Source: a virus | Virus record (IMG/VR): IMGVR_UViG_3300006037_000020 | Span: 1 to 31,915 of that record | DNA length: 31,915 bases | Direction: 5' to 3' (one strand) | Part shown: one piece after another, positions 5,195-28,570 of the stretch | Numbering within the stretch: position 1 is the first letter of the stretch | Layout: every line of letters begins with the position of its first letter | Made by a program: the position numbers and the translations under genes | The notes under the pieces: generated by a model | Seen by the model: only the letters and a program-made list of their open reading frames with translations | What the model was told of the DNA's origin: nothing | The model's database searches: none

Positions 5195-7912
5195 TTAACC
5201 GAATGAGAATAAATCATCAAATGTAGACTTAACGTTAGTGTTGCTTCGGATATCCCAATTCAACACACCTAAAAGGTTATCAATCTTTTCATCGACCAAT
5301 GTCTTTTCCATTTCGTCATCGTCAAATGGTAACTCACAGAACCATGCTGGCAAACGTAGCTCATCAGTTGGGTAAGCAATTGATGTAAAGCCTAATGGAT
5401 TAGGTTTCAGTTTGCAAACTACAACTTTCATACCGTCTACAATACGTTGACTGTATTGATCACCGTGAACTCTGCGCAAGTAGTTGTAGTTCAATGCTGC
5501 ACGAACGTGTCCGGGCATATTTTCTCTACCTTTCTTGCTGTTAGTCTCTAAGTCACCGTAGTATGTAAGTCTGTTCACGCCCTTAGGAGAACCTTTAGTC
5601 CAACTATCCTGCGCACCTAGCTTAAGTTTGAATGCTTTAACGACTTCAACTACTTCCTCACGCGGGCGACCCTGTTGAAGAACCATTTGCAGTACATTCA
5701 TCAAGAACTCTTGCACATACTTAGGAGTATCAGCACGTTTCAAGTCAAGACCCATAGCTTTGATCTCGCCGGGGGAACCATCTTTGTCTTTGCGCTTGCC
5801 TTCTTTATCAAAGATATTGATTGCATAACGCTTTTTAACGATAAAGATAGCACGATCACCGATTAGTTCTCGACCAGCTTTGATAATCTCACCGTTCTTA
5901 CGAGGTGCATGAAATGCTTTCTCCATGAACTGAGGGAAACTGTCGTTAGCTTGTTCGGCGATAGAGTCGTACAAACTAATACAAGTTTCTTTAGACCATT
6001 CCATTGTACCAGCAGCAACTTCACCTTTGATTGCGGGCCATGCACTGAAATAACATGAGTCAGTATCACCATAAACGATTGCATCACCTTCGTGCGTATA
6101 CTCGCCCATGATAGATTCATTGATGTTACTCATCATATGCTTAACAATCTGACGACCACTCAATGTTACACTTTGACCAATACGCTTGTCATAGAATCGG
6201 CAATGCTCGTTCAATAGTGCGCCGTATGCAGAGTTAAGCAAAATCTTACGAACAAGCTGACGCTTATCAAAATAATCATACTGGTCTGTTCCATAAGCTG
6301 CTTTAGCTTTCGCTTGCATTTCTTTACGTTCACTGTACCAACGAGTAAGTAGTCCGGGAACAATACCTTCTTTCTCGTATGAGAAGATTGTACCGTTTGC
6401 ACTTAGCATCCAAGGCTTATTACTATCAAAGACTAACTTCCAAATCTCTGCCGCACTCATTTCTACCGAACGACCATCTTCGTAGTCTAATGTCAGTATA
6501 GTTCCGCGCTCTTGGTTCATAATTGCAGTGTACTCTAAAGCACCGAACAAGTTTTCCCATAGAATAGCACCGGTAACGTCATCGTCACCATCTTTGTAAC
6601 GCTTTTTCTTACTTGCAAGTAGATGACCCTTGTCAAGCATGTACTTGTCAGTTATTGTCTGTCTAACTTGGGCAACGATTGATTCTCCCGCCATGTTAAG
6701 GGCGCGAATAACCGAGGGATAGAGCGAGTTAAGGTCAACTGCTCCGACATATTCGTGCATGCCTTTTTTGGGCGTAGCAACAAAGGCACCTGCCGCTTGC
6801 TGGATTTCATCTGCATCTTCATTCCTTCGTTTTTTATCTGGTACAACAACACCGCGTTCGTGTGCTTCGTTAAAAATTGCCATTTCAATCATAGCCACTG
6901 AACCCATAACTGTTGGAAGCAGTACAGTGTTTTCGTGTGCTAGTTGATTAGCTAGTTCTAGGAACTTAAGTTTCTTGTGAATCTTAAAAACCAACATAGT
7001 ATCTTGTCTGTTGTATTCAATGAACTTTTTAAAGTCCTTATTATACAACTGATCCAGAGTACCTTCATATTGAGTTTTGTTTTCACCTACTTCCATTTCA
7101 CCAATCGCATCTAACTTGTAGCTGTGACGGGATTCATAGTTGTATTTCTTGTAAAGTTGCAAATAGTCCATGTGAACACGACCGACCAAGTCGTAAGTCA
7201 TTTCTTTCTTACCGAATCGTTCGTATTCTCTTGGTTTAGGCAATTGACCCATCAAGCAAAACTTGCGTGTGTCATTTTTACTCATAACTCTAGTAACACG
7301 ATTAACCATATATGGAATATCGTATCCTTCTGAGTTCCAGCCAGTTAATACATCAGCATCTTCAATCAAGTCAAAGAAAACGTCAAACATTTCCTTCTCA
7401 TTATCAAACAATAAGCAGTTATCGAACTGGTCTACAATCTCTTGTGCAGTTTCTTTAGACATATGCTTAGGAGCAATGACCATAGTAACAAGTTGATCTA
7501 ACCAGTCCAAGTAACAACTGATAGCAGTCACTGGATTGAAAGGATCAGAGGTAGGACTGAAACCTTTTACTGGATCAAAGTCTACTTCAATGTCAAAGAA
7601 GCAAGTATGTAGTACGGGTGCATCCGCTTTAAGATAGTTCTCACTGAGACAACGAAAAATAACAGGTACATCTGATTCAAATAATTTCTTATTTGAATGA
7701 ATGCGCCGTTCTTTCTCAAACTCTGCACGTTTGCGAGTACTGAATCTACCCACTGGATCGCCGTAGATGCTACGGTGCTTGCCCTTAGGATCACTGTAGT
7801 AGAGTACATAGTTAGCAGGGTGTTCGACATACTGGCGTTTGCCGTTCGTATCTCGTTCGACAACATAAATCTTGTCTTCATCCCTGCTGTGGATAGCGTC
7901 TACATACGACAT
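5195..7912 (-). CDS. 43: Family B replicative DNA polymerase with 3'-5' exonuclease (gp43-like)
   Basis: 905 residues (T4 gp43 has 898) and uninterrupted by an intein or intron. Exonuclease motifs are complete: FFDIEVD (D107, E109), GWNSEGYDIPY (D198) and YNRQD (Y300, D304). Polymerase motifs are also complete: A in VDLNSLYPS (D393), B in KILLNSAYGAL (K556, N560), C in YGDTDS (D616, D618), and KKRYA near 693. The C-terminus STFDDLFSFG is a clamp-binding peptide like the tail of T4 gp43. It should copy the phage genome with the clamp encoded just downstream. Its start overlaps the dsbA stop as TAATG. This is the most secure call in the window. Confidence 0.97.
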   Translation of the reverse strand: MSYVDAIHSRDEDKIYVVERDTNGKRQYVEHPANYVLYYSDPKGKHRSIYGDPVGRFSTRKRAEFEKERRIHSNKKLFESDVPVIFRCLSENYLKADAPVLHTCFFDIEVDFDPVKGFSPTSDPFNPVTAISCYLDWLDQLVTMVIAPKHMSKETAQEIVDQFDNCLLFDNEKEMFDVFFDLIEDADVLTGWNSEGYDIPYMVNRVTRVMSKNDTRKFCLMGQLPKPREYERFGKKEMTYDLVGRVHMDYLQLYKKYNYESRHSYKLDAIGEMEVGENKTQYEGTLDQLYNKDFKKFIEYNRQDTMLVFKIHKKLKFLELANQLAHENTVLLPTVMGSVAMIEMAIFNEAHERGVVVPDKKRRNEDADEIQQAAGAFVATPKKGMHEYVGAVDLNSLYPSVIRALNMAGESIVAQVRQTITDKYMLDKGHLLASKKKRYKDGDDDVTGAILWENLFGALEYTAIMNQERGTILTLDYEDGRSVEMSAAEIWKLVFDSNKPWMLSANGTIFSYEKEGIVPGLLTRWYSERKEMQAKAKAAYGTDQYDYFDKRQLVRKILLNSAYGALLNEHCRFYDKRIGQSVTLSGRQIVKHMMSNINESIMGEYTHEGDAIVYGDTDSCYFSAWPAIKGEVAAGTMEWSKETCISLYDSIAEQANDSFPQFMEKAFHAPRKNGEIIKAGRELIGDRAIFIVKKRYAINIFDKEGKRKDKDGSPGEIKAMGLDLKRADTPKYVQEFLMNVLQMVLQQGRPREEVVEVVKAFKLKLGAQDSWTKGSPKGVNRLTYYGDLETNSKKGRENMPGHVRAALNYNYLRRVHGDQYSQRIVDGMKVVVCKLKPNPLGFTSIAYPTDELRLPAWFCELPFDDDEMEKTLVDEKIDNLLGVLNWDIRSNTNVKSTFDDLFSFG

Positions 7913-8175
7913 TAGAGAGTCTTACCGACGGTTTCTAGAATTGTGTTGAGTTCTTCGTGGTCTTTGTTTGTCTGACCCAAACTAGCTTTGTGTGCGATAC
8001 GAATCGCTTTCTTCAAAGTGCTTGGTTTGACTTCAATTTCTTCCGCAATCGCTTTGATAGTATCAGTCAATCCGCCATTGAGAGTATCAATCTCGTGCAT
8101 GACTGCCATACCTTCATTAATCAACTGAACCAACTTCAACTTTTGATCACCACTGAACATTTTTGCATCGCTCAT
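7912..8175 (-). CDS. dsbA: DsbA-like double-strand DNA-binding protein
   Basis: 87 residues, similar in length and layout to T4 DsbA (89). An N-terminal helix (QKLKLVQLINEGMAVMHE) leads to a conserved core (LTDTIKAIAEEIEVKPSTLK) and a basic helix (KAIRIAHKASL), then an acidic C-terminal helix. T4 DsbA binds double-stranded DNA and affects late transcription. The gene is first in the replication operon, is preceded by a good ribosome site (AGGAG), and is coupled to the polymerase start. The family call rests on pattern and position, not on an alignment. Confidence 0.65.
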   Translation of the reverse strand: MSDAKMFSGDQKLKLVQLINEGMAVMHEIDTLNGGLTDTIKAIAEEIEVKPSTLKKAIRIAHKASLGQTNKDHEELNTILETVGKTL

Positions 8176-8196
8176 AAATTCTCCTATTAAAAGTCT

Positions 8197-8225
8197 ATTG
8201 TATAGTAAAATGAGTACGGATGCAA
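8197..8225 (-). promoter_or_regulatory. Sigma70-like promoter for the dsbA-polymerase-clamp operon
   Basis: On the minus strand TTGCAT (8225-8220) and TACAAT (8202-8197) are separated by 17 bases, the optimal spacing for host sigma70. It lies about 20 bases before the dsbA start at 8175 and faces left into the replication block. It is the best host-type promoter seen here, which suits early or middle expression of replication genes. The divergent late promoter for the homing endonuclease starts only 10 bases away. Confidence 0.6.
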
Positions 8226-8234
8226 TATATATGG

Positions 8235-8242
8235 TATAAATA
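8235..8242 (+). promoter_or_regulatory. T4-type late promoter (TATAAATA) for the homing endonuclease
   Basis: A perfect T4 late consensus octamer, TATAAATA. It is the only NATAAATA I found on the plus strand, and it lies 68 bases before the start of the only complete plus-strand gene. The expected transcription start, about six bases downstream, coincides with the first base of a hairpin. Confidence 0.7.
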
Positions 8243-8247
8243 GTAGT

Positions 8248-8277
8248 GAGAATCGCGGTATTGTAGTACCCATTCTC
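8248..8277 (+). promoter_or_regulatory. Two-part hairpin at the 5' end of the endonuclease mRNA
   Basis: GAGAAT (8248-8253) pairs with ATTCTC (8272-8277), and inside it GGTA (8257-8260) pairs with TACC (8267-8270) around a TTGTAG loop. It would form at the very 5' end of RNA made from the late promoter at 8235. It does not cover the ribosome site (AAGAAAGGAAC, near 8295-8305), so stabilising the RNA is more likely than blocking translation. Confidence 0.5.
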
Positions 8278-8310
8278 TCTAGTGTTTAATTTTAAGAAAG
8301 GAACACCAGC

Positions 8311-9003
8311 ATGATATTTAGTAGAAGTAATCCGCCCTCAGGATTTTATGTATATGCATATCTCCGAAAAGATAACTCTCCGTATTACATAGGTAAGGGT
8401 AAAATGCAGAGAGCTTGGGTACACGGTAAAAAAGAATTATTTAGAACACCACTAGATAAAACCAGAATAACAATAGTTGAATCTAACCTAACTGAGTTGG
8501 GTGCCTTTGCAATAGAAAGAAGATTAATACAATGGTACGGTAGAAAAGATTCAAATACGGGCATACTCAGAAATAGGACTAGTGGAGGGGAGGGTATATC
8601 TGGTTTCTCTCATTCAGATAACACTAAAGAGAAAATCCGAAATAAGAGATTAGGTTCTAAATCATCAATGACTTCACGAAAAAACCAAAGCATTGCAACC
8701 AAAGGTGTCAAGCGTAGCCCTCATACTCAAGAAAGAAAAACAGCAATAAGTGCAGCAAAACTTGGTAAAAAATTAGAAGGCGCTGGCCTAGAAAGTCTAA
8801 GAGAAGCTAGAAAACTAAAGTGCGGTGTAAAAAGACCCAATCATAGTAAAAACATGCTGGGAGAAAATAACCCGATGTACGGAATTGACCGAGGTTGGAA
8901 TAAAGGGGCTTTGGGATACAAATGGTACACCAACGGCATAGTTTCTGTAATGAGAAACCAATGTCCAGATGGACATTGGCAAGGTCGAACTAAAAAGTTA
9001 TAA
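8311..9003 (+). CDS. Free-standing GIY-YIG homing endonuclease
   Basis: 230 residues. The GIY-YIG core is GFYVYAY (11-17) and PYYIGKG (24-30), followed by the conserved Arg region (R34), a catalytic Glu in ERRLIQWYG (E69) and NRTSGGEG (88-95). Next come Lys/Arg-rich segments such as [15 protein letters not shown] and [19 protein letters not shown]. These resemble NUMOD3-type DNA-binding repeats, which grip the target site. The C-terminal piece ([11 protein letters not shown], then CPDGHWQGR) recurs in phage homing nucleases. It is a selfish gene that cuts DNA lacking it and spreads by repair. It is opposite in strand to all its neighbours and sits between dsbA and the adhesin genes, as expected for an insertion. 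It has its own late promoter and an AAAGGAAC ribosome site. Confidence 0.9.
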
Positions 9004-9074
9004 TTACTTACTACTGTAACAGGAGAAAGTCAACAGTTAACGGAATGTTTCTGAGTGAACTTTACCGTAATATA

Positions 9075-10547
9075 TTATTGGTCTGTAGTCAATGTACTTG
9101 GGAACGAACGTCCTGGTCCCCAGATGATACGAACTGCTCCACCTCCACCGACGCCGCCGCCCGGGACCGATGACCCGCAGCCACCACCACCACCACCATA
9201 TGACCCGCCAGGGCCGGTCTGGTTGCCTGCGCTCCCTCCCGAGCCACCGCCGCCGCCGTAACCATTATAATTACCATCAGTTCCGCCGGCACCACCGCTG
9301 TCGCCTTGCCCGAATATACCAACGCCGCCACCTGATCCAGCACGCCCACCAGCTTGGTTAAAACCACCACCACCACCACCGGCGCCGCCTGTGCCTGCAA
9401 CACCGAACGGGCTACCGCCGTTACCGCCGCTACCGGCATAACCGCCGGCGCCACCACCGCCCGTGCCTGGGCTACCACCATCAAATCCACCAACGGTACC
9501 GCCATATGTACCAGCACCAACTGTACTACTATATCCAGGACTTGATTTTAGTAGTATATTACTGCCTCTAGCAATTGATGTTGTCCCACCACTTCCACCA
9601 TAACTACTGCCACCAGTTCCACCAGCACCTGATAGAATAGTCAATGTTTCTCCAGGGGTTACTGATACAGAATTGATATACCTAAGAGCGCCGCCACTTC
9701 CACCGCCGGCATACTGGCCCGTAGCCGAGCCGCTGCCGCCTGTGCCACCGCCCACAACCACTGCACTAATACTAGTAACCCCGCCTGGCACTGTCCAAGA
9801 ATATGTTCCAGGTGTAGTATATGCAACTTGCCCAGTTGGCGGTGCAGTTGCTACGTTGACGCTGAAATTTCTATCAGTGTCTTGATTCTCTCCGTCGGTT
9901 GCTCTAACCGTGAAGTTATAAGTCGTTGATCCCGAAACAGTGGGCATAGTACCTGAAAGAAAACCAGTAGTACTATTCAATGTTATACCACTTGGCAATG
10001 CTCCTGAAGTAATGCTATATGTAACTGTACTGTCACTAGTTGCTGCCAATGTTGCACTAAATGCAGTTCCCTGAGTATATGCACCTAAGCTACCGGCTGT
10101 AGTCGTCCAAGCAGGAGTTCCTGAATATTGTATACCAGTGATAAGAGTTGCAGTTGCACCGTCTGGATTGAGTACGACTAGTGGATAGTTACCTGCTGTT
10201 TTTGCAGGACTAGTGAATGTTATCTGCGTTGAGTCTACTACTGTGACAACACTAACGGGAATGCCGCCTATATACACTGCTGCACCGTAGTTAAATCCCG
10301 AACCAGTTAGAGTAAGAGTTAGTCCACCTGCAGGAGCGGTTGCAGTATCATCTGCTGTTGCTCCAGTACCATAAACTATTGCAGAGACTCTAGGTATAAG
10401 TGCATTAGTACTAGTCAAACTAGTTCCGGCAATGTTAACATTGCCGCTTAAATAGACATTTCCATATCTGTTATTAGCTGACCCGAGATCGGGGTTAGTT
10501 GTTGGGGCGATTAATGCCGCGTTTTTGATTGAATTATAATTTGCCAT
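9075..10547 (-). CDS. Tail fibre adhesin paralogue 1 (IPT/TIG, Ig-like, glycine-rich tip)
   Basis: 490 residues. The first 50 (MANYNSIKNAALIAPTTNPD...) are almost identical in the next two genes and probably attach to the fibre or baseplate. Residues about 52-143 are an IPT/TIG domain (LTLTGSGFNYGAAVYIGG, then ITFTSPAKTAGNYPLVVLNP). Residues about 146-232 are a putative Ig domain of the He_PIG type (SGALPSGITLNSTTGFLSGT). Residues about 245-475 are very rich in glycine, like the GRM tips of T-even gp38 adhesins. It ends RIIWGPGRSFPSTLTTDQ. The glycine-rich region is a likely receptor-contact surface. The C-terminal sequence differs fully from the two paralogues. It lies 10 bases after paralogue 2, with a TAAGAAAGAAAA ribosome site. 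Confidence 0.85.
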   Translation of the reverse strand: MANYNSIKNAALIAPTTNPDLGSANNRYGNVYLSGNVNIAGTSLTSTNALIPRVSAIVYGTGATADDTATAPAGGLTLTLTGSGFNYGAAVYIGGIPVSVVTVVDSTQITFTSPAKTAGNYPLVVLNPDGATATLITGIQYSGTPAWTTTAGSLGAYTQGTAFSATLAATSDSTVTYSITSGALPSGITLNSTTGFLSGTMPTVSGSTTYNFTVRATDGENQDTDRNFSVNVATAPPTGQVAYTTPGTYSWTVPGGVTSISAVVVGGGTGGSGSATGQYAGGGSGGALRYINSVSVTPGETLTILSGAGGTGGSSYGGSGGTTSIARGSNILLKSSPGYSSTVGAGTYGGTVGGFDGGSPGTGGGGAGGYAGSGGNGGSPFGVAGTGGAGGGGGGFNQAGGRAGSGGGVGIFGQGDSGGAGGTDGNYNGYGGGGGSGGSAGNQTGPGGSYGGGGGGCGSSVPGGGVGGGGAVRIIWGPGRSFPSTLTTDQ

Positions 10548-10557
10548 ATTTTCTTTC

Positions 10558-12075
10558 TTAGAATGTTATTGTGCCGCTAGTGGTCCATTTGTAAACTCTA
10601 TAACCGCCTGCTACTGTTATAGTTGGACTGCCTGTAGTTGATGGTGCAGCATCATATGTGTCTGAGTAGCGAATAATAACGATACCAGAGCCACCTGCCC
10701 CAGCTGGATATGCATACCCAGAACCGTTATATGCACCTGCTCCACCGCCACCACCGGTATTTGGAGTACCGGAAGTTGCAGTTGCTCCATCCAGGCCACC
10801 GCGTCCACCACCGCCGGTTCCACCGGCCCCTGGAGCATAATTTACAGTTGTGTTATAATTACCACCACCACCACCACCACCTGCATAATAAGTAGCAGCT
10901 CCTGATATGCTAGAAGATAATCCAACACCGCCCGGGCCACCACTGGCACCGCCTGTACCAGCAGCACCGGCGCCACCGCCACCACCACGCCCATATGCAG
11001 TTGAAGTTCCACCTGCATAACCTTGACCTGCAATTCCGGCGCCACCTGTACCATTACCGCCAAATGCTACACCAGCGCCGCCGCCACCTGAACCGCCTGA
11101 TCCTGCTTGTATAACTGGTGCTCCGCCTGATCCTGCTGCGCCACCACCACCACCCGTACTAGTAATTGTTCCAAATACTGAGGCGCCACCGTTACCACCA
11201 TTTACTGCATATGAGTCAGTTGAGGCTGCGCCACCAGCACCTACAGTGACTGTAATAGGCGTAGACGGTGTTATTGAATAGCTCGTTGCAGTCAAGTAGC
11301 CCCCGGCGCCACCTCCACCACCGATGCCACCACCACCTCCACCACCAGCAACCACTAAGTATTCTACAGTAGCAGGGGCATTGCTAGGAATTACTGTTAA
11401 ACTAAAGTTTCTAGCAGTATCCTGCTTCTGTGCGTCAATTGCACTAATTGTAAAATTATATGTTGATGAGTTTGTTACTGTAGGAGCAGTTCCTGATATA
11501 AAACCAGTGCTAGCATTCAATGTTACTCCACTAGGTAATGCACCTGAAGTTACACTATAAGTTACAGGTGCATCTCCTGTCGCAGCTACAGTTATATTTA
11601 CGCTAGAAGATTTAACAACACTAGCTAAACTACCTGCACTAGTTGTCCATGCTGGTACACCTGAGTATTGTATACCCGGTACACTAAGTGCAGTGCCTCC
11701 GTCAGGGTTAATAACATACACGACATATCCACCTGCACTCATCGCAGGACTAGTAAAGGTTAGTGTAGTACTGTTTACAAATGTAACTAATGAAACAGGA
11801 GTACCGTTTATTAAAACAGTTGCTCCGGTTTGATATCCAGATCCACTTAATGTAATAGTTTGACCTCCTGCAATGTCTGCCGCAGTGTCATCACCTATAT
11901 AATTAATAGATGTAATTCTAGGAGCGAGAGCATTAGTACTAGTTAGACTAGTTCCCGCAATGTTTACATTACCACTAAGATAGACATTTCCATATCTGTT
12001 AGTTGCACTACCAAGGTCGGGGTTAGTTGTCGGAGCTATTAATGCCGCGTTTTTGATTGAGTTATAATTTGCCAT
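10558..12075 (-). CDS. Tail fibre adhesin paralogue 2 (IPT/TIG, Ig-like, glycine-rich tip)
   Basis: 505 residues with the same layout as paralogue 1: shared N-terminus 1-50, IPT/TIG about 52-143 (ITLSGSGYQTGATVLINGTP), Ig-like about 146-232 (SGALPSGVTLNASTGFISGT), and a long glycine-rich part from about 240. The tip has longer Gly runs (GGGGGGGIGGGGGAGGYL) and a different end (GSGIVIIRYSDTYD, then GGYRVYKWTTSGTITF), a C-terminal cap common to phage glycine-rich fibres. The cap is shared with paralogue 3 but not paralogue 1. Amino-acid changes concentrate in the glycine-rich region, as expected if it sets host range. Confidence 0.85.
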   Translation of the reverse strand: MANYNSIKNAALIAPTTNPDLGSATNRYGNVYLSGNVNIAGTSLTSTNALAPRITSINYIGDDTAADIAGGQTITLSGSGYQTGATVLINGTPVSLVTFVNSTTLTFTSPAMSAGGYVVYVINPDGGTALSVPGIQYSGVPAWTTSAGSLASVVKSSSVNITVAATGDAPVTYSVTSGALPSGVTLNASTGFISGTAPTVTNSSTYNFTISAIDAQKQDTARNFSLTVIPSNAPATVEYLVVAGGGGGGGIGGGGGAGGYLTATSYSITPSTPITVTVGAGGAASTDSYAVNGGNGGASVFGTITSTGGGGGAAGSGGAPVIQAGSGGSGGGGAGVAFGGNGTGGAGIAGQGYAGGTSTAYGRGGGGGAGAAGTGGASGGPGGVGLSSSISGAATYYAGGGGGGGNYNTTVNYAPGAGGTGGGGRGGLDGATATSGTPNTGGGGGAGAYNGSGYAYPAGAGGSGIVIIRYSDTYDAAPSTTGSPTITVAGGYRVYKWTTSGTITF

Positions 12076-12085
12076 GTTTTATTTC

Positions 12086-13525
12086 TTAGAATGTTATTGT
12101 GCCGGTACCAGCAGTAAATGTATATACTCGGTACCCTGTTCTAGTAGTAGTATCTACTGCATACGTAAGTGTACCAGGAATGGTTGTAATCGCTGGAGTA
12201 CTTGATGGATATGCTATTACAACAACACCCGGGCCGCCGGTATACTGCGGATTGTATACGGTCATTGAGCCGCCACCGCCATATGAGGCACCACCACCAC
12301 CTGCCGGGGTTGCACCAGTCTGGCCGCCGCCGCCCCCGCCCGCGTATGAAATGGTTACTCCGGTAATGTTAGATGTTACTCCGGCACCTCCGGCGCCACC
12401 GCTATTGGAGCTCCAAGTATATCGAACCTCGGCTGGGCCACCTGCGCCGCCGCCTCCTCCTCCCCCTTTAGTAGAACTATTTGCGACCGGCGCGTCTGCG
12501 CCCGCATATCCTAAACCGCCCGACGCAGATGCAGGTTGCAGTGCTGCTCCACCTATGAGACCTGATGCTTTTGGAGCTCCTGTCGGAGTAGATCCTTGAT
12601 TAATAGACCCACCACCGCCCGATCCGCCAGCCTGTCCCTCATCGCCACCATTTATTGCAACTAATGATCCAAATATCACCTTGCCGCCCGAGTATGAAGC
12701 AGCATTATTAAATGTGATAACTCTAGTGTCTCCCGGAGCAACAGTAGCTGTACCTGAAATAAATCCGCCAGCGCCGCCACCGCCCCAACTACCATCTCCA
12801 CCTTTACCAATTACAAGATATTCTATTGTAACAGAAGCAGCTACAGTTAGACTAAAGCTACGATTAGTATCTTGTTTCTGTGCGTCAGTAGCACGAATCG
12901 TAAAGCTATATAATGTAGAATTAGTAACTGCTGGAGCAGTACCTGATAATGCACCGGTTGCACTGTTTAGTGTTACGCCACTTGGTAATGTACCTGAATA
13001 TAAACTGTAGGTGACCGGCGCATCTCCGGTCGCAGCTAATGTTATACTTACACTTGCTGAAGCTACTACACCGGTTAATGCGCCGGCAGTAGTAGTCCAA
13101 GAAGGAGTACCTGAATATTGAATTCCAGGTAGTGACATTGCAGTGCCACCATCTGGATTGATGACATATATAACATAACTACCAGCACTCATTGCCGGAC
13201 TAGTGAGTGTTAATTGATTACTGCTAATAAATGTTACTACCCCTACTACCGTTCCACCTATTAGCACACTAGCACCGAATACAAATCCAGATCCATTCAA
13301 TGTAATTGTCTGTCCACCGGCAATGTCTGCCGCAGTATCGTCCCCGATGTAGCCAATGCTTGATACTTTAGGAGTAAGTGCATTAGTACTAGTAATACTA
13401 GTTCCAGCAATGTTAACATTACCACTTAAATAGACATTTCCATATCTGTTACTAGCTGACCCCAAATCAGGGTTAGTTGTTGGGGCGATTAATGCCGCGT
13501 TTTTTATTGAGTTATAATTTGCCAT
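12086..13525 (-). CDS. Tail fibre adhesin paralogue 3 (IPT/TIG, Ig-like, glycine-rich tip)
   Basis: 479 residues and the first of the three to be transcribed. It has the shared N-terminus, IPT/TIG (ITLNGSGFVFGASVLIGGTV), an Ig-like domain (SGTLPSGVTLNSATGALSGT) and a shorter glycine-rich region that starts at about 235 (IGKGGDGSWGGGGAGGF). It ends GYRVYTFTAGTGTITF, close to paralogue 2. It starts 14 bases after the HExxH gene and uses an AAGAAAG ribosome site. Whether all three adhesins are in each virion or act as alternatives cannot be told from sequence. Confidence 0.85.
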   Translation of the reverse strand: MANYNSIKNAALIAPTTNPDLGSASNRYGNVYLSGNVNIAGTSITSTNALTPKVSSIGYIGDDTAADIAGGQTITLNGSGFVFGASVLIGGTVVGVVTFISSNQLTLTSPAMSAGSYVIYVINPDGGTAMSLPGIQYSGTPSWTTTAGALTGVVASASVSITLAATGDAPVTYSLYSGTLPSGVTLNSATGALSGTAPAVTNSTLYSFTIRATDAQKQDTNRSFSLTVAASVTIEYLVIGKGGDGSWGGGGAGGFISGTATVAPGDTRVITFNNAASYSGGKVIFGSLVAINGGDEGQAGGSGGGGSINQGSTPTGAPKASGLIGGAALQPASASGGLGYAGADAPVANSSTKGGGGGGGAGGPAEVRYTWSSNSGGAGGAGVTSNITGVTISYAGGGGGGQTGATPAGGGGASYGGGGSMTVYNPQYTGGPGVVVIAYPSSTPAITTIPGTLTYAVDTTTRTGYRVYTFTAGTGTITF

Positions 13526-13538
13526 TGGTTCTTTCTTA

Positions 13539-14123
13539 TTATTGGAATATTTCGGGATGTTCTTTGCCGTATATCTTAATATACTTCCCTGCCATCATAT
13601 CTGCCATCGCTTCGATGGGTGAACCGGGGTAACTATCATCGGGACCAATCATGTTCAATTGATCTTGTCTCTCATGCACAAGTTCGTGGAACAATGTACG
13701 AAAAATATCTACTAAATTGCGATTTTTGATATAGACTAATATGTGGCCATCGTCTGTGTGCATACCAGTACGATGATTGACTTGTGCGTCTTTAGTATCA
13801 GTGCTTAACTTGATCTTTGGATAAGGTTTTTGAACGTTTAATGTTTTGATTGCCCATTGAACAAAGTCTCTGATTTGGTCTAAGTTTTCAGTATTGTCTA
13901 CTGATTCGTCCATTCTGTTTTTGATCTTTTTCACCCACGTATCAGGAGTGTGACCGTACTTGCTAACAAACATATCATGCAATTTCTTACCGTCAATATC
14001 ATGTCTTGCACTGATTCGCTTCATCAATTTGTCAATTGTACTGTAATCGTGCTTTTTTAGTGACGGGAGTTTGTCTGCTAACTCAGTAGCAGCGGATTCA
14101 AAGATAAATTCATTATAGCGCAT
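13539..14123 (-). CDS. HExxH metallopeptidase-like protein with capsid-targeting-like N-terminus
   Basis: 194 residues. The zinc-binding motif HELVH is at 146-150 (in FRTLFHELVHERQDQ), and a downstream Glu in SPIEAMADMMAGKY (E171) is a plausible third ligand, giving a gluzincin-like arrangement. The N-terminus MRYNEFIFE-S resembles the T4 capsid-targeting sequence MKTYQEFIAE-A, with cleavage expected after E9. The middle (20-75) is basic and helical. If it is packaged in the head and ejected, it could cut a host protein or aid cell-wall passage; this is inference. Alternatively it is a virion assembly protease. A late-promoter octamer lies only 4 bases before the ATG. The upstream 51-residue ORF overlaps it as TAATG. 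Confidence 0.7.
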   Translation of the reverse strand: MRYNEFIFESAATELADKLPSLKKHDYSTIDKLMKRISARHDIDGKKLHDMFVSKYGHTPDTWVKKIKNRMDESVDNTENLDQIRDFVQWAIKTLNVQKPYPKIKLSTDTKDAQVNHRTGMHTDDGHILVYIKNRNLVDIFRTLFHELVHERQDQLNMIGPDDSYPGSPIEAMADMMAGKYIKIYGKEHPEIFQ

Positions 14124-15796: not shown

Positions 15797-16413
15797 TTAG
15801 TTACCTCAGGTGCAGTTAGTGAAAACTCACTCTTAAAATGTTCTAAATTCCAATTAGGCAATAGGCGTTTTGCCATTTTAGCATATAGTGCTTGTCGTGA
15901 TGATTCCTTGGCAGAAAATATCAACTTAGATATCTGCCCTTTATGTTTCTCTAGGAAGGCTCGTAGGATATCAGTAACAGTAGACATAACTTGTGCAGCA
16001 TTACCTGTACCAGTAACACCAAATCTATTACCTGGGTCACCACCTTCTACTATCTTAAACTCTACTTCCCAAGTTCCGGGTTGTGATGAATACGCATAGA
16101 ATTTGTACTGTATATCACCTATTACAAATGTTGCTTCAGATTCAGTTGGACTGTTATAATCCCATTTCCAATCTTTGTCAGGGGCGAATAGTTCTGTTAG
16201 TTCTACCTCTTTCATCAACTTAGCAACACGAGGCTTGAACAACTGTACTTCACCTTTGTTAGTTTTTAACACAGGTTGATTGTGCTTGTCTTTAGTGAAG
16301 CCTTTAATCTCTGCTGGGCTATTCTTAAATTTACCTTTAAGTATCTTATCACCAACACTTAATTCAGGTGGTTGATATGATTCAGTTTCTGTGATGAATT
16401 CAATTGCTCTCAT
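15793..16413 (-). CDS. Unknown protein with capsid-targeting-like N-terminus
   Basis: 206 residues starting MRAIEFITE-T. Residues about 17-65 are a small beta-rich module (LSVGDKILKGKFKNSPAEIK, then LKTNKGEVQLFKPRVAKLMK) that looks like a short SH3/KOW-type barrel. The C-terminal half (about 80-200) has strands such as GTWEVEFKIVEGG and a helix SSRQALYAKMAKRLLPNW, a motif I recall from other phage accessory proteins, but no known catalytic signature. A further (I/L)xE site (ELTE-LF) lies near residue 73. It is coupled to dps upstream (TAATG) and to the GNAT fusion downstream (ATGA). Function not assigned. Confidence 0.55.
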   Translation of the reverse strand: MRAIEFITETESYQPPELSVGDKILKGKFKNSPAEIKGFTKDKHNQPVLKTNKGEVQLFKPRVAKLMKEVELTELFAPDKDWKWDYNSPTESEATFVIGDIQYKFYAYSSQPGTWEVEFKIVEGGDPGNRFGVTGTGNAAQVMSTVTDILRAFLEKHKGQISKLIFSAKESSRQALYAKMAKRLLPNWNLEHFKSEFSLTAPEVTK

Positions 16414-16853
16414 TACTCTCTATCTTTCTTTAAGATAGAGCGAATCATCCATGATTTCTTACCATAGAAGTCTTGTAGTTCTGCCATGAAGTTTGCAATG
16501 CCCTGCTGACGTTCAGCAGAGGCAACATCAAATATCTCTATTACTAATACGATCATTTTTTGACAGTCCACTAATGATTCAGCAAACATTAGTTCTGCAC
16601 GTGGAATCTTTATTTGATCTTGAATGATTGACAACTCAGCATAGCGAGTTAAACTTGCAGGAGCATATGCATCTAACACCCTGATATACTCTGCAATTCT
16701 ATCTATAGTCGCATATGAATCGTTGTACAGGTTGTCATAGAATTCATGATATTGCGGGAAGTTACTACCTTCAATATTCCAATGAAAGTTACGAGACTTC
16801 AACGAGAACAATTCAGTTGAAGCCAGTAATGTCTTTAAGTTGTCAGATAACAT
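16413..16853 (-). CDS. dps: Dps-like mini-ferritin with intact ferroxidase centre
   Basis: 146 residues. The diagnostic core is FHWNIEGSNFPQYHEFYD followed by TIDRIAEYIRVLD. The iron ligands H24, H36, D40, D51 and E55 have exactly the spacing of E. coli Dps H51, H63, D67, D78 and E82, so the intersubunit ferroxidase site is complete. The C-terminal helix ends in DFYGKKSWMIRSIL, also typical. Dps forms a 12-subunit shell that oxidises and stores iron using peroxide, and some members coat DNA. The Lys-rich N-terminal DNA-binding tail of E. coli Dps is absent. It sits within the run of capsid-targeted proteins but lacks their leader. It might protect infected-cell or packaged DNA from oxidative damage, or sequester iron; both are inference. 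Confidence 0.9.
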   Translation of the reverse strand: MLSDNLKTLLASTELFSLKSRNFHWNIEGSNFPQYHEFYDNLYNDSYATIDRIAEYIRVLDAYAPASLTRYAELSIIQDQIKIPRAELMFAESLVDCQKMIVLVIEIFDVASAERQQGIANFMAELQDFYGKKSWMIRSILKKDRE

Positions 16854-19539: not shown

Positions 19540-21330
19540 TTACAGTGCAGCAATTCTTGTTTGGAAGTCAGCAAAGTCAGTGCTAGCTGCCACTAATGTT
19601 TTTAATGATGTTATACTAATAAACTGAGATATACCTGCGCTGTCAACAATGTCGCCACCATTTGGTAGCATTAAATTACCTTCTTTGTTAAATTCCCAAG
19701 TCTGTAATGTTGTACCATCGAGGGTTCTTACAAATACTCTACCTGCTTCTCCGTCAGCAATAACAGATGCAACATTACTTGATGCTGCTCCGCTACTGAC
19801 TAATGTTAAACGGTCATTTCTAGTAATAGAATCAGGAACAGTTAGTGTGCCATTATTGCCAAACGTCCATTCTGGTGCTGTTATTGCCGCGGCATAGTTA
19901 GCAGTCTTTAATATGATTGGAAATTCTGGACTGCTGGTGGTTGCGGCGCCGGAATATGAGATATCAAGGTATAAGCCAACATTACCCTGAGCAATACTTG
20001 TGATAGTTCTTACATCACCGTTAGCGAAAGTGATTGTACTACCCGCTGGATAGGTGTTGATGATAGTGCCATCCCATGGTATATCTACTACTCCAGGAGT
20101 ACCTGCCCCAGTACCACCTTCACTGTCAGTAGCAATAGTCTTCGTAGAACCAACCTGAGGTGTATCTATGCCAGAGGCAATCTTACCGTCGCTAGGGAGT
20201 GTTAATGCACCATCAGTACCAAACTTCCATGTATAGTTGTCAACGCCACCTAGTGTGCGGACAAACACAGATTTGTCTGACGAGCCTAACACAATACCAG
20301 GATCAGTATTGTCATTGCCAGTTATAACACCGTCTTGTAATACTATACTTCCAGGAACTGTTAGCGTACCGCTACTAGCAAAATTAAATTCTACTGCTGG
20401 GCTTGCGCTAGGAGTGAAGTGAATCTTTACATCACCGGTACCAGTCATGGTGTTGTCAGTAAAAGTGATATTTCCAGTAGACGAACCACTATTCACTGTA
20501 GTGAAATGATAAGTACCATTTCCGTATGCGGTCAGCACTTGACCTACTGTCCCGTCGCTAATACCAAAGTCAGCGATAGAAGTGGGGATAGTTGGTTTGT
20601 TGCGCACGTCTTCATAGTTGCCAGTACGGCCAGCAGTAGATATAGTAGGTAAATTAGATAAATCGCTATACAGGCCACTAAATGCAACATCTGCTAAACT
20701 AGTGATGTTTGCTTTGTTAGCTAGTTGAGAAATAATACTGAACTCCGGATTGTCAGTAGCACCGATCACATTGGCTATTTCAGCTAGTGTGTCTAGAATA
20801 CCAGGGGCAGTACCAACTAAGGTATCTATAGCATTTGCTACATCAGTCTGGGTTGCGAGTGTACTGTAGCTTACTGTGCTCCAGGCGTCAGAAACACCAT
20901 TTGTAACTAAGAACTTACCACTGTTACCAACTCTAGAGGGAAGAACATCAGCCCATGAAGTATTACCGTTACCGTCAGTTGTCAGAAAGTTTCTATTAAC
21001 TCCACCACTTAATTTCAAACTATTATTGATTGTAATAGAGTTAGCGATAACAGTACCAGTAGTCAACGTATCCGTAGTGGGCTCAAACTGTAGACCGGTG
21101 TCTCCAACATAGCTACCGTTTTGATTAAACTGGATTGAACCGTTCGCACCTTGCGGAGCATTTATTTGGATAACTTGAGTTACCACCTGAGTTACTTGCT
21201 CTAATACTACATTTTTAGTGACATTTTCAATAGGTGTTAGTGCAACTTGAATTTCACGCTGCATTAAATATTCTAGTGCAGGGTCTTGCAGAGTGTTAAC
21301 TGATGGTGGGGTCTTAATAGGTGCTGACAT
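19540..21330 (-). CDS. Long tail-fibre or structural protein with WxFG repeats
   Basis: 596 residues. A helical N-terminus (LEYLMQREIQVALTPIENVT) precedes a hinge of the common fibre type (GANGSIQFNQNGSYVGDTGL). Then come short beta repeats built on W-x-F-x-x-x-G-x-L-x-(L/V)-P: TWKFGTDGALTLPSDG, EWTFGNNGTLTVPDSI and TWEFNKEGNLMLPNGG. Helical spacers (ANAIDTLVGTAPGILDTLAE) lie between. Such repeats are typical of long phage fibres and fibre-associated proteins in T4-like aquatic phages. No C-terminal chaperone domain is seen; it ends in a short helix. It is expressed with the nucleotidyltransferase gene 12 bases upstream. Fibre role likely, exact position on the virion unknown. Confidence 0.75.
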   Translation of the reverse strand: MSAPIKTPPSVNTLQDPALEYLMQREIQVALTPIENVTKNVVLEQVTQVVTQVIQINAPQGANGSIQFNQNGSYVGDTGLQFEPTTDTLTTGTVIANSITINNSLKLSGGVNRNFLTTDGNGNTSWADVLPSRVGNSGKFLVTNGVSDAWSTVSYSTLATQTDVANAIDTLVGTAPGILDTLAEIANVIGATDNPEFSIISQLANKANITSLADVAFSGLYSDLSNLPTISTAGRTGNYEDVRNKPTIPTSIADFGISDGTVGQVLTAYGNGTYHFTTVNSGSSTGNITFTDNTMTGTGDVKIHFTPSASPAVEFNFASSGTLTVPGSIVLQDGVITGNDNTDPGIVLGSSDKSVFVRTLGGVDNYTWKFGTDGALTLPSDGKIASGIDTPQVGSTKTIATDSEGGTGAGTPGVVDIPWDGTIINTYPAGSTITFANGDVRTITSIAQGNVGLYLDISYSGAATTSSPEFPIILKTANYAAAITAPEWTFGNNGTLTVPDSITRNDRLTLVSSGAASSNVASVIADGEAGRVFVRTLDGTTLQTWEFNKEGNLMLPNGGDIVDSAGISQFISITSLKTLVAASTDFADFQTRIAAL

Positions 21331-25614: not shown

Positions 25615-26322
25615 TTAGTCAGGGCGTTTCTCTAGTTTAAACCTACGCTTAATCATGTCTCCGAACATAATACCAATCAATGAGTGAGTACTTTCTTCAT
25701 TGTATTCTATGTAATAATGACTGCTACAATAGCGGTATGCCCAGTATTTTACTTGACCGTTAAGCCAACTATTTAGTGATGAACTAGCAACAATTATAGT
25801 TTGGGTGCCTTTGTATCTATCTACAAACCGTTTCAAATCTTCAACAAATTTGTCTTTGACCGCTTTAGATTTTAGATACACCCTATACTTGTATTTAGGT
25901 TCCTTAACGAAATACTTGACCCCTGTCGGGATGCTTGTATCAATCTCAGTATAGTCAACTGCATCTTTTCCAGCAATAGATTCCAGTGTCTGTAATAGCT
26001 GCAAGTCATTGCTAAACACACCAGCAGTAATCGACTCAACACGAATGAGTACTTGTTTATCGGCTTTATCAATTGGAGTTGCATAGGTGTTTCTCCAATT
26101 GATAAACTTCTCTATACAGTCTAGATCAAGTAATGCTATTTCTTTTTGCCTACCATACTTTTTTAAACGATATAGAACATCAAGCATTGTTTTAGCTTGA
26201 TGTGTTCTATTCAACCCAGCTAGCTTCAACCTAGCTCGGTATTGATATTTGCCATAATACAACGACTCTCTGCGATCTATGCCGATCACTGCCGGCTTAA
26301 CTAATGACGTTGATGAAACCAT
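25615..26322 (-). CDS. Phage protein of unknown function, 235 residues
   Basis: A basic mixed alpha/beta protein. The N-terminal part (YYGKYQYRARLKLAGLNRTH) suggests strand-rich RNA or protein binding. The middle has a helical charged stretch (LKKYGRQKEIALLDLDCIEK), and the end is rich in aromatic residues (KYWAYRYCSSHYYIEY). No catalytic motif is evident. It overlaps clpA by 26 bases, so it is probably translated from the same RNA. I recall similar proteins in T4-like cyanophages but cannot name a role. The chosen start has GGGGTAG upstream; a later start is possible. Confidence 0.55.
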   Translation of the reverse strand: MVSSTSLVKPAVIGIDRRESLYYGKYQYRARLKLAGLNRTHQAKTMLDVLYRLKKYGRQKEIALLDLDCIEKFINWRNTYATPIDKADKQVLIRVESITAGVFSNDLQLLQTLESIAGKDAVDYTEIDTSIPTGVKYFVKEPKYKYRVYLKSKAVKDKFVEDLKRFVDRYKGTQTIIVASSSLNSWLNGQVKYWAYRYCSSHYYIEYNEESTHSLIGIMFGDMIKRRFKLEKRPD

Positions 26323-28570
26323 TACTATCTACCCCTACGTTTAGTTTCTGTGCTATGTCAAAACGTATTTCATCTCCATTCATATTAGCAGTAATTGTGG
26401 TGTTTTTAATACGTTCAAACAGAATCTTCTTACTTAATGGGATGCGTACTAGTTCATCAATTTTACGAGCTAAAGGACGTGCGCCCATTTTAGGATCATA
26501 TCCCTTGTCAGCTAGATAATCTACTACTGGCTCACTAAGATTCAATGTAATGTCATGCACTTCCTTAAGAGATTTCTTCAAGTCATCGGTAAACTTAATA
26601 ACGATTTTTTTAATTGCTAGTATGTCTAGCTTACCAAACTTAGTAATCAGGTCAATACGATTCCTGAATTCTGGCTTGAAGAATTCTTTCAATGCTTTGT
26701 CATCATCACCGATACGTTCTTGACTACCGAAGCCAATGTTGCTACGTTCGCTATCACTAGAACCTAAGTTGCTAGTCATAATAATGATACAGTTTTTAGC
26801 ATTCACTTCTTTACCGTTTGTACCAGTAACACGACCTTCGTCTAACAATTGCAAGAATACGTTAAAGATATCAGGGTGAGCTTTTTCAACTTCATCAAAC
26901 AACAAGATAGAGTGAGGGTGCTTACTCAAGTCATTGATAAGTCTGCCGCCGCCTAAGTTTCCTTCACCGAAGCCTACATAACCAGGAGGTGCGCCTAGCA
27001 AGCCGCTGACGTTAAACTTTTCACTGTATTCACTCATATCGTACTTGAGCAATTTCATGTCCAAGTTCTTACTAAGTTGTTTAGCTAGTTCGGTCTTACC
27101 TGTACCAGTTGGTCCTAAGAACAAGAAACTTGCTAGAGGTTTAGTTTGATTACCGATACCCGCGAATGACACATAGATACGTTCAAGTACTTTATCAACC
27201 GTTTCCTCTTGTCCGTACAATTTATCTTTAACATTAGTTTCTAGATTTTGAATTCTATCAGAAGTATCATCTGTCAACTTGTCAGCAGGAACTCCAGTGT
27301 ACTTTTCAATTTGCTCAAACACTAGTTCCTTAGTGATGACAGCACCTTTGTTTTCCAACACACGTTGTTTAGCACAAGCTGCGTCTAGCAAGTCAATAGA
27401 TTTGTCAGGGTTCTTACGATCTTGAATGTAACGAGTTGCACCTTCTACGCTTGCATTGATTGCTTCGTCGGTGATTTCAACACTGTGGAAATCGCTCAAT
27501 CTTGCACTCAATCCTTTGAGAATTCGAACAGTAGACTCTGGACTTGGTTCATCAATACTAACACGATAGAATCGGCGCATCAATGCACGATCCTTCTCGA
27601 AACTTTCGTAGAATTCTTCCCATGTAGTACTAGCAATAACTTTCAGTGTGCCTTTAGTAATCGCAGGCTTGATCATGTTAGCAAAGTCAACACTTCCATT
27701 GCTGGAGCCGCCTGCACTACGCATGGTATGTGCTTCGTCAATGAACAGAATAGCATTTTCTTTTGCAGCCAATGCTTCTAGTACGTCTTTGACCTTTTCT
27801 TCAAAGTCACCACGATACTTACTACCTGCAAGCAATGAACCGATTTCAAGACTATACAATTCGTGATCTAACAAAAAGTCAGGTACTTCTTTGTTGACAA
27901 TCATCTGTGCGAGACCTTCTGCAATCGCAGTTTTTCCCACGCCAGGATCACCAACCATCAATACATTGCTTTTGAATCGTTTTGCCAGAACGTTAACGAT
28001 ATCATCAATTTCTTTAGTACGACCGATGACTGGCTCAAGTTTGTCTAGCTTAGCCAATTGAGTCATGTTGATAGTAAATTCTTCAAGAATCTCATCAGCT
28101 TGCTCATCTGTCATCTTGACTTCTTTGTGGTCACTCTTGTAGTTTTTCTGCCAGTAAGGAACAAATTCGTTCTTCACAAAGCCATACTTAAGCATAAAGT
28201 AATGCGCGTGACTATTTGTTTCTGCGCTAATACTCAGGTACAAGTCAATCGTAGTCACAACTTTGCGACCAGTGAACAATACTTGAGTTACGCTTCGATT
28301 CATCACACGTTCTAAGCTGTTGGTCTTACGAGGTTGAACTTCTTGACCGGGCTCTACATCTACTGTAATAGCTGTTAAGCTATCCAAATATGCAGTTATG
28401 TCTTTGTTCATAGATTCAGTGTCAATACCGTGACCAACTATACATTTCTTGAATGGTACATAATTAATTAATGCAAGCAACAAGTGCTCGACGGTGCAAT
28501 ACTGATGATTGCGAACTTTCGCCAAACCTACTGCTTGTTCGATGATTGATTCAATTTCGGGTGAATGCAC
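26297..28570 (-). CDS. clpA: ClpA-like AAA+ unfoldase with two ATPase domains
   Basis: 757 residues, E. coli ClpA having 758. An N-domain ([20 protein letters not shown], 10-29) comes first. D1 has Walker A GDPGVGKT (207-214), pore loop KYRG (251-254) and Walker [10 protein letters not shown]2 has Walker A GPTGTGKT (486-493), pore loop GYVG (530-533) and [17 protein letters not shown] at 611-617 is placed where ClpA has its IGL ClpP-binding loop, so docking to a ClpP is possible. It unfolds proteins with ATP. No clpP is in this window, so it may use the host's or one elsewhere. The start is GTG with AAGGAAAC upstream; no in-frame ATG fits. It lies 9 bases after dnaJ, making a chaperone pair. 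Confidence 0.95.

Follow-up and report, generated by a model that had tools for sequence, protein, structure and literature searches.

The three tandem genes at positions 9075–13525 of the virus record IMGVR_UViG_3300006037_000020 probably encode paralogous receptor-binding proteins at a modular, tip-exchanging locus of a T4-like, jumbo-related phage, a reading to which we assign a probability of about 0.72. The window analysed, 31,915 bp long, takes in the whole record, which is a linear fragment. Each protein, here called A1, A2 or A3, has a nearly constant base of 50 residues, an Ig-like stalk and a divergent glycine-rich tip (Table 1); copy number and tip type vary at one and the same site among close phages; and one relative carries a gene with a clean crossover at the end of the base. 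Tip exchange across relatives is supported by these sequence comparisons. We take the window to be one piece of a T4-like, jumbo-related phage genome because its family-B DNA polymerase most resembles those of jumbo myoviruses, the nearest belonging to Sinorhizobium phage Phosso (48.5% identity), Atu_ph07 (47.2%) and RaK2 (42%), with CBB also among the matches.

The array consists of three intact, co-directional open reading frames (ORFs) that fill the interval on the minus strand, separated by 10-bp gaps and read in the order A3, A2, A1. ORFs, alignments and Pfam matches confirm the observation behind an earlier interpretation made from the letters of the window (hereafter the sequence-only reading), which had noticed three tandem adhesins with a constant base and divergent glycine-rich tips. 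The near-identity of the first 50 residues holds in protein (49/50, 48/50 and 48/50 in the three pairwise comparisons), and the tips do differ in the ways it described: those of A1, A2 and A3 measure 260, 275 and 249 amino acids (aa) with 38, 36 and 28% glycine, and A2 and A3 share the C-terminal cap GYRVY.....GTITF where A1 has VRIIWGPGRSFPSTLTTDQ. The 150-bp 5´ repeats that it invoked are present, but their DNA is just 85–93% identical among the three genes, with longest exact common words of 23, 35 and 22 nt, so that exchange there would join imperfect copies. The stalks are 60, 60 and 73% identical. Pfam recognises He_PIG in all three proteins, TIG in A1 and A3, and Gly_rich_2 (PF21722; gathering score 24.3) in A1 (37.0 bits) and A2 (85.1 bits); the A3 tip and the TIG region of A2 had no match in the Pfam scan and were assigned by alignment to the sister genes. 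Direct-repeat families of 280 and 300 nt, with one copy per gene at matching spacing, were judged from alignments to lie above chance.

The order peptidase-like gene, adhesin gene(s), p87 and DNA polymerase is found in seven contigs, of which G010 is cut off at the left. The site, bounded by the peptidase-like gene on one side and by p87/DNA polymerase on the other, is a variable locus of adhesin genes that differs in copy number and tip type. The DNA polymerases of G003, G007 and G008 are 96.5–98.3% identical, yet the tip types of these phages differ; those of the window, G001 and G010 are 93.6–96.3% identical. G008 and G009 have matching blocks of 80–94% on both sides of the locus and unrelated tips. 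An eighth, partial contig (L089) holds at the site a stalk-bearing, Lcl_C-like gene with 91% DNA identity to the G008 gene over 1035 nt. The six-fold propeller-like repeat of G003 carries a name of our own reading, with no Pfam match in either copy and no PHROG match in the one copy scanned. An array of always three, fixed and without variation, the outcome that the sequence-only reading had set against itself, is thus not what is found between phages. In a survey anchored on p87, covering 84 loci from the best 80 of at least 562 relatives, a gene with base and stalk lies upstream of p87 in 7 loci (6 contigs) and the stalk alone in one more, the remaining 76 having other genes or too little upstream sequence. 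On these counts, the adhesin array is the mark of one group of phages.

The clearest trace of exchange is in a gene of G002 that lies in a different gene context. Its base matches copy b of G003 (53/56 informative sites) and its stalk matches copy a (161/177), with the breakpoint at gene nt 141–148, at the end of the 150-bp repeat; none of 5000 permutations was as strong. On third positions alone the figures are 21/23 and then 76/82 (0/5000). G002 and G003 share the sample number 3300031857. The G002 gene is a clean recombinant formed in nature, joined where the base gives way to the stalk. In G004, copies a and b share an identical run of 83 nt, from -5 to +78, and diverge after it, with breakpoint tests of 17/5000 and 0/5000 on all sites. 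The tests comprised nine triplets in two modes (all sites and third positions), three of them from relatives (0, 17 and 0/5000 on all sites) and six involving window genes; with that many tried, single permutation values are to be discounted. The proposal of the sequence-only reading that recombination runs through the 5´ repeats thus stands on the G002/G003 crossover at the repeat end and on the exchangeable tips of relatives, but not evenly on the window itself, whose own signals vary. Taken as a whole, that earlier interpretation is partly supported.

Synonymous sites were compared as well. Between the window and G001, identity at 4-fold degenerate sites is 0.58–0.67 in five of six flanking genes and 0.43 in the sixth, which encodes 121 aa; it is 0.64–0.77 in the base and 0.31–0.52 in the stalk. 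Fisher tests of base above stalk against G001 give p = 0.066 (A1), 0.0002 (A2) and 0.10 (A3), and base versus stalk within the window gives 0.0009 (A1–A3), 0.25 (A1–A2) and 0.10 (A2–A3). At only 57–59% identity in their base 4-fold sites, the A1–A2 and A2–A3 bases have not recently been homogenised; strong homogenisation within the window was rejected for these two pairs, whose bases have diverged at such sites as far as the window has from G001.

Searches with the stalk, the base and a base profile yielded 20 genes in 11 contigs with this base, the window included. Loci of one contig were merged (for example L020 = L096; L004 = L006 = L016 = L172; L007 = L017 = L176, in G002). Left out were a distant base of the MADY[YF]Q..KNQ type (L024–L027, L041, L044, L049, L051, L072, L090), of which only L027/L090 and L049 pass the hidden Markov model of the base, and short base-like motifs in L012 and L065. 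Same-base arrays hold five copies in G005, three in the window, three in G004 and two in G003; the other seven contigs have one each, the count in G010, cut off on one side, being a lower bound. The tips belong to four types that Pfam recognises, Gly_rich_2, RCC1, Laminin_G_3 and Lcl_C, to which the propeller-like repeat is added. Across the 20 genes, base identity is 0.79 within arrays (17 pairs) versus 0.57 between them (173 pairs; 0/5000 label shuffles), and stalk identity 0.64 within versus 0.58 between (17/5000). The A2 base is 0.96 identical with A3 and 0.62 with G009, the A2 stalk 0.73 and 0.71, respectively. The stalk occurs more often than the base; from 101 relatives confirmed in IMG/VR the best 80 (78 loci) entered the analysis, and many other N-termini occur among them.

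Table 1. Features of the window and content of the related loci.
Contig	Feature	Position	Strand	Remark
Window	Adhesin A3, 479 aa; base, TIG, He_PIG, Gly-rich tip; first in array	12086–13525	-	
Window	A3 base, codons 1–50 (150-bp 5´ repeat)	13376–13525	-	
Window	A3 stalk ("core", aa 51–229, TIG and He_PIG)	12839–13375	-	
Window	A3 Gly-rich tip	12086–12838	-	By alignment; no Pfam match
Window	Adhesin A2, 505 aa; base, TIG-like, He_PIG, Gly_rich_2 tip (PF21722)	10558–12075	-	Cap type as A3
Window	A2 base, codons 1–50	11926–12075	-	
Window	A2 stalk, aa 51–229	11389–11925	-	
Window	A2 Gly-rich tip	10558–11388	-	Predicted fold matches Bxb1 tail-tip chain 9d93_Qa
Window	Adhesin A1, 490 aa; base, TIG, He_PIG, Gly_rich_2 tip; last in array	9075–10547	-	Other cap
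Window	A1 base, codons 1–50	10398–10547	-	
Window	A1 stalk, aa 51–233	9849–10397	-	
Window	A1 Gly-rich tip	9075–9848	-	phrog_4474
Window	Site content: 3 Gly-rich			
G001	Site content: 1 Gly-rich, extra Ig			
G003	Site content: 2 with six-fold propeller-like repeat			
G007	Site content: 1 Gly-rich			
G008	Site content: 1 Lcl_C			
G009	Site content: 1 Gly-rich, plus LamG gene on another short base			
G010	Site content: 1 RCC1, plus 1 RCC1-like gene on another base			
G005	Same-base tandem array: 5 copies, 4 Gly-rich and 1 LamG			Gly-rich: two by Pfam, two by sequence
G004	Same-base tandem array: 3 copies, 2 Gly-rich and 1 LamG			Gly-rich: one by Pfam
Window	194-aa protein with HELVH motif; conserved left boundary of site	13539–14123	-	Kept in relatives
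Window	p87, 87-aa protein; conserved right boundary of site, DNA polymerase next	7912–8175	-	Kept in relatives
Window	T4-type (family B) DNA polymerase; kinship yardstick among phages	5195–7912	-	
Window	Homing-endonuclease-like gene between array and p87	8311–9003	+	phrog_314, E 7e-6

The nature of the tip was approached through structure. A model of A2 built from 20 aligned sequences (mean predicted local distance difference test score, pLDDT, of 83, and about 42–53 in the base) has as its top structural match the Bxb1 tail-tip chain 9d93_Qa (Z 14.5, root-mean-square deviation 3.4 over 180 residues, 31% identity), which spans model residues 232–471; the other 49 matches, listed at Z of 11.9 or less, all align to the stalk. 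By sequence, the sole solved phage fibre found with a family profile is that of Pam3 (chains 7yfw/7ypx, E 1.8e-4 and 2e-4, positions 306–471), on our own reading gp24 of PMC9608196. The excerpts of that paper describe a fibre, compared there with S16 gp38, that ends in a TNF-like and a glycine-rich domain, with the glycine-rich domain as the proposed receptor binder (PMC9608196). Sequence searches of solved structures with just the A1 or the A2 tip gave no match up to E = 10, and the A1 model is weak (pLDDT 65.7, with most of the tip under 50). gp38 is not among the fold matches listed, in lists dominated by Ig domains that may mask it. In fold, the modelled tip is most like the tail tip of Bxb1, with a faint sequence likeness to the Pam3 fibre; these matches do not point to T-even gp38 in particular. 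A cell-surface-binding module is the likeliest role of the tip by analogy, because relatives in fold or sequence, such as the Pam3 glycine-rich domain, have been proposed to bind the receptor.

We propose that the constant base probably docks on the tail or a fibre and would be kept compatible with its own phage, that the Ig-like stalk of TIG and He_PIG follows it, and that an exchangeable tip stands at the end. The glycine-rich beta-sandwich/loop tip would, to judge from its fold relatives, probably contact the cell surface. A crossover within the base DNA or immediately beyond could swap the tip and all or part of the stalk in one step. The copy numbers suggest that genes may be added through tandem duplication or import and removed through recombination, unequal exchange being one way to change their number, and several tips might be made at once. 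As a guess, breaks made by homing-endonuclease-like genes could promote local exchange. A bolder extension, possible in our estimation though with the odds against it, is a bank of one socket and many tips: the 50-residue base would take at least five kinds of tip (glycine-rich, RCC1 propeller, another propeller-like repeat, LamG lectin and Lcl_C), the one to five tandem versions would be made together and compete for docking sites to give mixed virions within an infection, and recombination at the socket end would reshuffle tips between copies and between co-infecting phages.

Several points weigh against the reading of the array as a tip-exchanging receptor-binding locus. The phage is known here from its genes alone. 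Neither Pfam nor PHROG has a match for the base, and the model of the base taken alone is poor (means of 10-residue blocks 40–53). The breakpoint signals of the window are uneven and weaker than those of relatives: the six triplets with window genes give 1, 6, 26, 93, 182 and 703/5000 on all sites and 0, 18, 248, 491, 557 and 606/5000 on third positions. Among them, A2 against G001/A3 breaks at nt 177–178 (1/5000; third positions at nt 186–198, 0/5000), A3 against A1/A2 at nt 151–152 (6/5000; third positions 248/5000), A2 against G001/A1 at nt 201–204 (26/5000; third positions 18/5000) and A1 against A3/A2 at nt 163–167 (182/5000; third positions 606/5000), the two remaining triplets giving 93 and 703/5000. 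In G004 the tests fail on third positions (2055 and 348/5000), and the contrast of base and stalk at 4-fold sites is significant for A1–A3 and A2–G001, not for the other four window pairs. The shuffle tests take no account of shared ancestry. The base itself varies between close phages (39–40/50 between the window and G007, 29–31/50 between the window and G009), so that whole genes must move, not just tips, and arrays are not always uniform, the two bases of G003 being only 54% alike and one pair in G004 46%. Finally, no near-identical sister contig with another tip was seen in searches that may omit such records.

Other explanations account for parts of these data. The proteins might decorate the virion, coating head or tail and binding polysaccharide or surfaces without setting host range. 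Such a role would suit a phage whose polymerase is nearest to those of jumbo phages such as Atu_ph07, with CBB among the matches, given that such phages bear hair-like fibres or whiskers on head and tail according to an excerpt of PMC7824862, and LamG, RCC1 and Lcl_C are general binding folds. We nevertheless consider it unlikely: among solved structures the tip is matched best by a chain listed as belonging to the tail tip of Bxb1, the glycine-rich domains of Pam3 and gp38 are described as receptor-binding in the portions available of PMC9608196 and PMC12892980, and turnover of tips would fit arms races over receptors. Rather more unlikely, in our judgement, is a fixed complex in which the three proteins are not alternatives but obligatory arms of a single adhesin, branched or hetero-oligomeric. 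All three genes are intact and evenly spaced, and the multiple tailspikes of Ackermannviridae do build one branched complex; there, however, the N-terminal docking domains differ between members (PMC11414711, in excerpt), whereas the window bases are 48–49/50 identical, and the close phages G001, G007 and G008 carry a single copy at the same site.

That the genes are old duplicates drifting apart without exchange, their bases alike only through stronger amino-acid constraint, seems to us a little more doubtful again. The 57–59% identity of base 4-fold sites in A1–A2 and A2–A3 speaks for it, as does a base/stalk difference at such sites that within the window is significant for A1–A3 only. It leaves unexplained both the G002/G003 crossover and the different tip types at one site in phages with 96.5–98.3% identical polymerases. 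Invertases and diversity-generating retroelements are known means to vary phage tips. Programmed switching of this kind found no supporting point here and strikes us as extremely improbable: no long inverted repeats frame the genes, all three are co-directional and intact, and the scanned window proteins, which are part of the ORFs of a fragment contig, included none named as an invertase or a reverse transcriptase. An invertible segment was rejected, the inverted-repeat arms measuring just 16–26 nt with 73–94% complementarity.

Read as a tip-exchanging receptor-binding locus, the array resembles, by analogy, the known logic of Ackermannviridae tailspikes and T-even gp38. The tsp1–4 genes of Ackermannviridae (CBA120/S117) resemble one another at the 5´ end and vary at the receptor-binding end; recombination through the conserved 5´ regions has been proposed, and a tsp4/tsp5 chimera was seen in the laboratory (PMC11414711, in excerpt). 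The window likewise has tandem genes with a conserved 5´ end and a variable 3´ end. The Ackermannviridae docking domains differ from one another and build a branched complex with tailspikes as tips (PMC11414711, in excerpt), whereas here one 50-aa base is repeated in one to five copies with four Pfam tip types and a propeller-like repeat. No link of the base to XD/TD-type docking domains emerged from Pfam or PHROG, the CBA120 sequences not having been directly compared.

The sequence-only reading had called the tips gp38-type, which holds only as an analogy. The gp38 of T-even phages (T2, S16, PP01) is a glycine-rich receptor-recognition tip of T4-like phages with constant and hypervariable segments, a separate protein that sits on gp37 and forms a beta-helix and polyglycine-II sandwich (PMC12892980, in excerpt). 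A glycine-rich tip in a T4-like phage is common to both, but the window tip is fused to base, TIG and He_PIG instead of standing alone, its best structural match is Bxb1, and the solved fibre nearest by sequence is Pam3. Adhesin swapping by recombination between conserved motifs is reportedly the subject of a 1998 study by Tetart et al., as its title has it. With Pam3 and Bxb1 the glycine-rich domain is shared (by sequence profile and by fold, respectively), but Pam3 gp24 attaches by an alpha-helical domain (PMC9608196, in excerpt) and not by a base and stalk of the window type. Pelagiphages, cyanophages and uncultured phages have Gly_rich_2 (PF21722) proteins of the same tip family, often with Ig-like domains; of the 50 matching records in the phage collection, 0/50 cover 80% of A2, 48/50 lie below 60% identity and the 40 listed reach at most 44.4%. 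As to isolated relatives carrying the array, the protein search of that collection gave these 50 partial matches, its nucleotide search one weak match (7% of the query, in a different genome type), and a collection of genome contigs 0/37 confirmed pattern matches. LamG lectins have been reported on jumbo-phage tail fibres (PMC7824862, in excerpt), and DNA was the suspected target of the RCC1-like proteins in jumbo phage phAPEC6 (PMC7247149, in excerpt); finding RCC1 on the present adhesin base suggests that some of these proteins, at least, do something else.

Related adhesins were also observed away from this base. L035, L047 and L048 encode LamG-tipped giant adhesins on another base, with flanks and stalk about 94–98% identical and mosaics of conserved and unrelated blocks beyond; they are a further sign of recombination and a second example of tip variation. 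The row at L013 (G002, 25200–45000) has RCC1-type propellers, Calx-beta-like repeats and one glycine-rich tip capped like that of A1, mostly on other bases, with some modules 85–90% identical in DNA to modules of G003, which has the same sample number. Weak matches to the base motif DLGS..NRY.NVY.SGN lie inside other proteins of G004, G005, G006 and G002, several of more than 1000 aa, hinting that the base may be one copy of a common fibre repeat. Upstream of p87, adhesin-like genes (RCC1-like, LamG-like) on a different short base occur at L143 (75–2849), L099 (243–1873) and L020 (8005–8877), Pfam having been applied to L020 only, so that the site may accept more than one class of base. More distant relatives (L097, L101, L102, L104, L107, L109, L110, L113) have unrelated genes upstream of p87, for example one for a 196-aa protein that we read as tRNA-lysidine-synthetase-like, and the site may therefore be a general cargo site.

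As to the neighbouring genes, "peptidase-like" is our own reading of the HELVH motif in the left boundary protein, which has no Pfam match. The homing-endonuclease-like gene is of GIY-YIG type by our reading, with a NUMOD3 score under the Pfam cut-off. No such gene occupies the gap between array and p87 in G001, G007, G008 or G010; G001 has two homing-endonuclease-like genes close by, and G003 has an HNH gene between p87 and the polymerase. In the window this gene is inserted within 8176–9074, in the stretch where G001 and G010 have a sigma-70-like promoter (TTGAC...TATACT, our reading); the window retains the upstream part, TTGACTTTCTCCTGTTACAGTAGTA, and diverges beyond it. Window-wide scans did not clearly exceed shuffles for sigma-70-like promoters (20 found, 16.7 expected) or terminators (8 found, 4.9 expected), and the T4-type late promoter TATAAATA occurs three times against 2.4 expected by chance, with none directly upstream of the array. 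Elsewhere the window encodes a fusion of a cytidylyltransferase-like domain with a mannose-6-phosphate isomerase C-terminal/cupin domain (974–1765), a 596-aa protein with PHROG tail-fibre matches that is a candidate docking partner of the base (19540–21330), a ferritin-like protein, Dps-type by our reading and "DNA binding protein" in PHROG (16413–16853), and a 757-aa ClpA-like AAA+ ATPase, "ATP-dependent protease" in PHROG (26297–28570).

In conclusion, the modular nature of the locus is well supported, and since known systems already cover the general logic, the present finding refines rather than overturns it. A small search of the open-access literature found no description of a 50-aa base on different tip types, of a same-base array of up to five, or of a natural crossover at the base end. 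The locus offers a natural, readable example of the point at which phage adhesins are cut and joined, the end of a short constant base, with different binding folds at one site among phages whose polymerases are 96.5–98.3% identical. It makes testable whether several tips can share a virion when their bases are identical, and whether, in jumbo-related environmental phages, the number of adhesin copies follows host range. Relatives show tips being gained, lost and swapped at the site, a turnover that may be a route by which such phages alter their host recognition.

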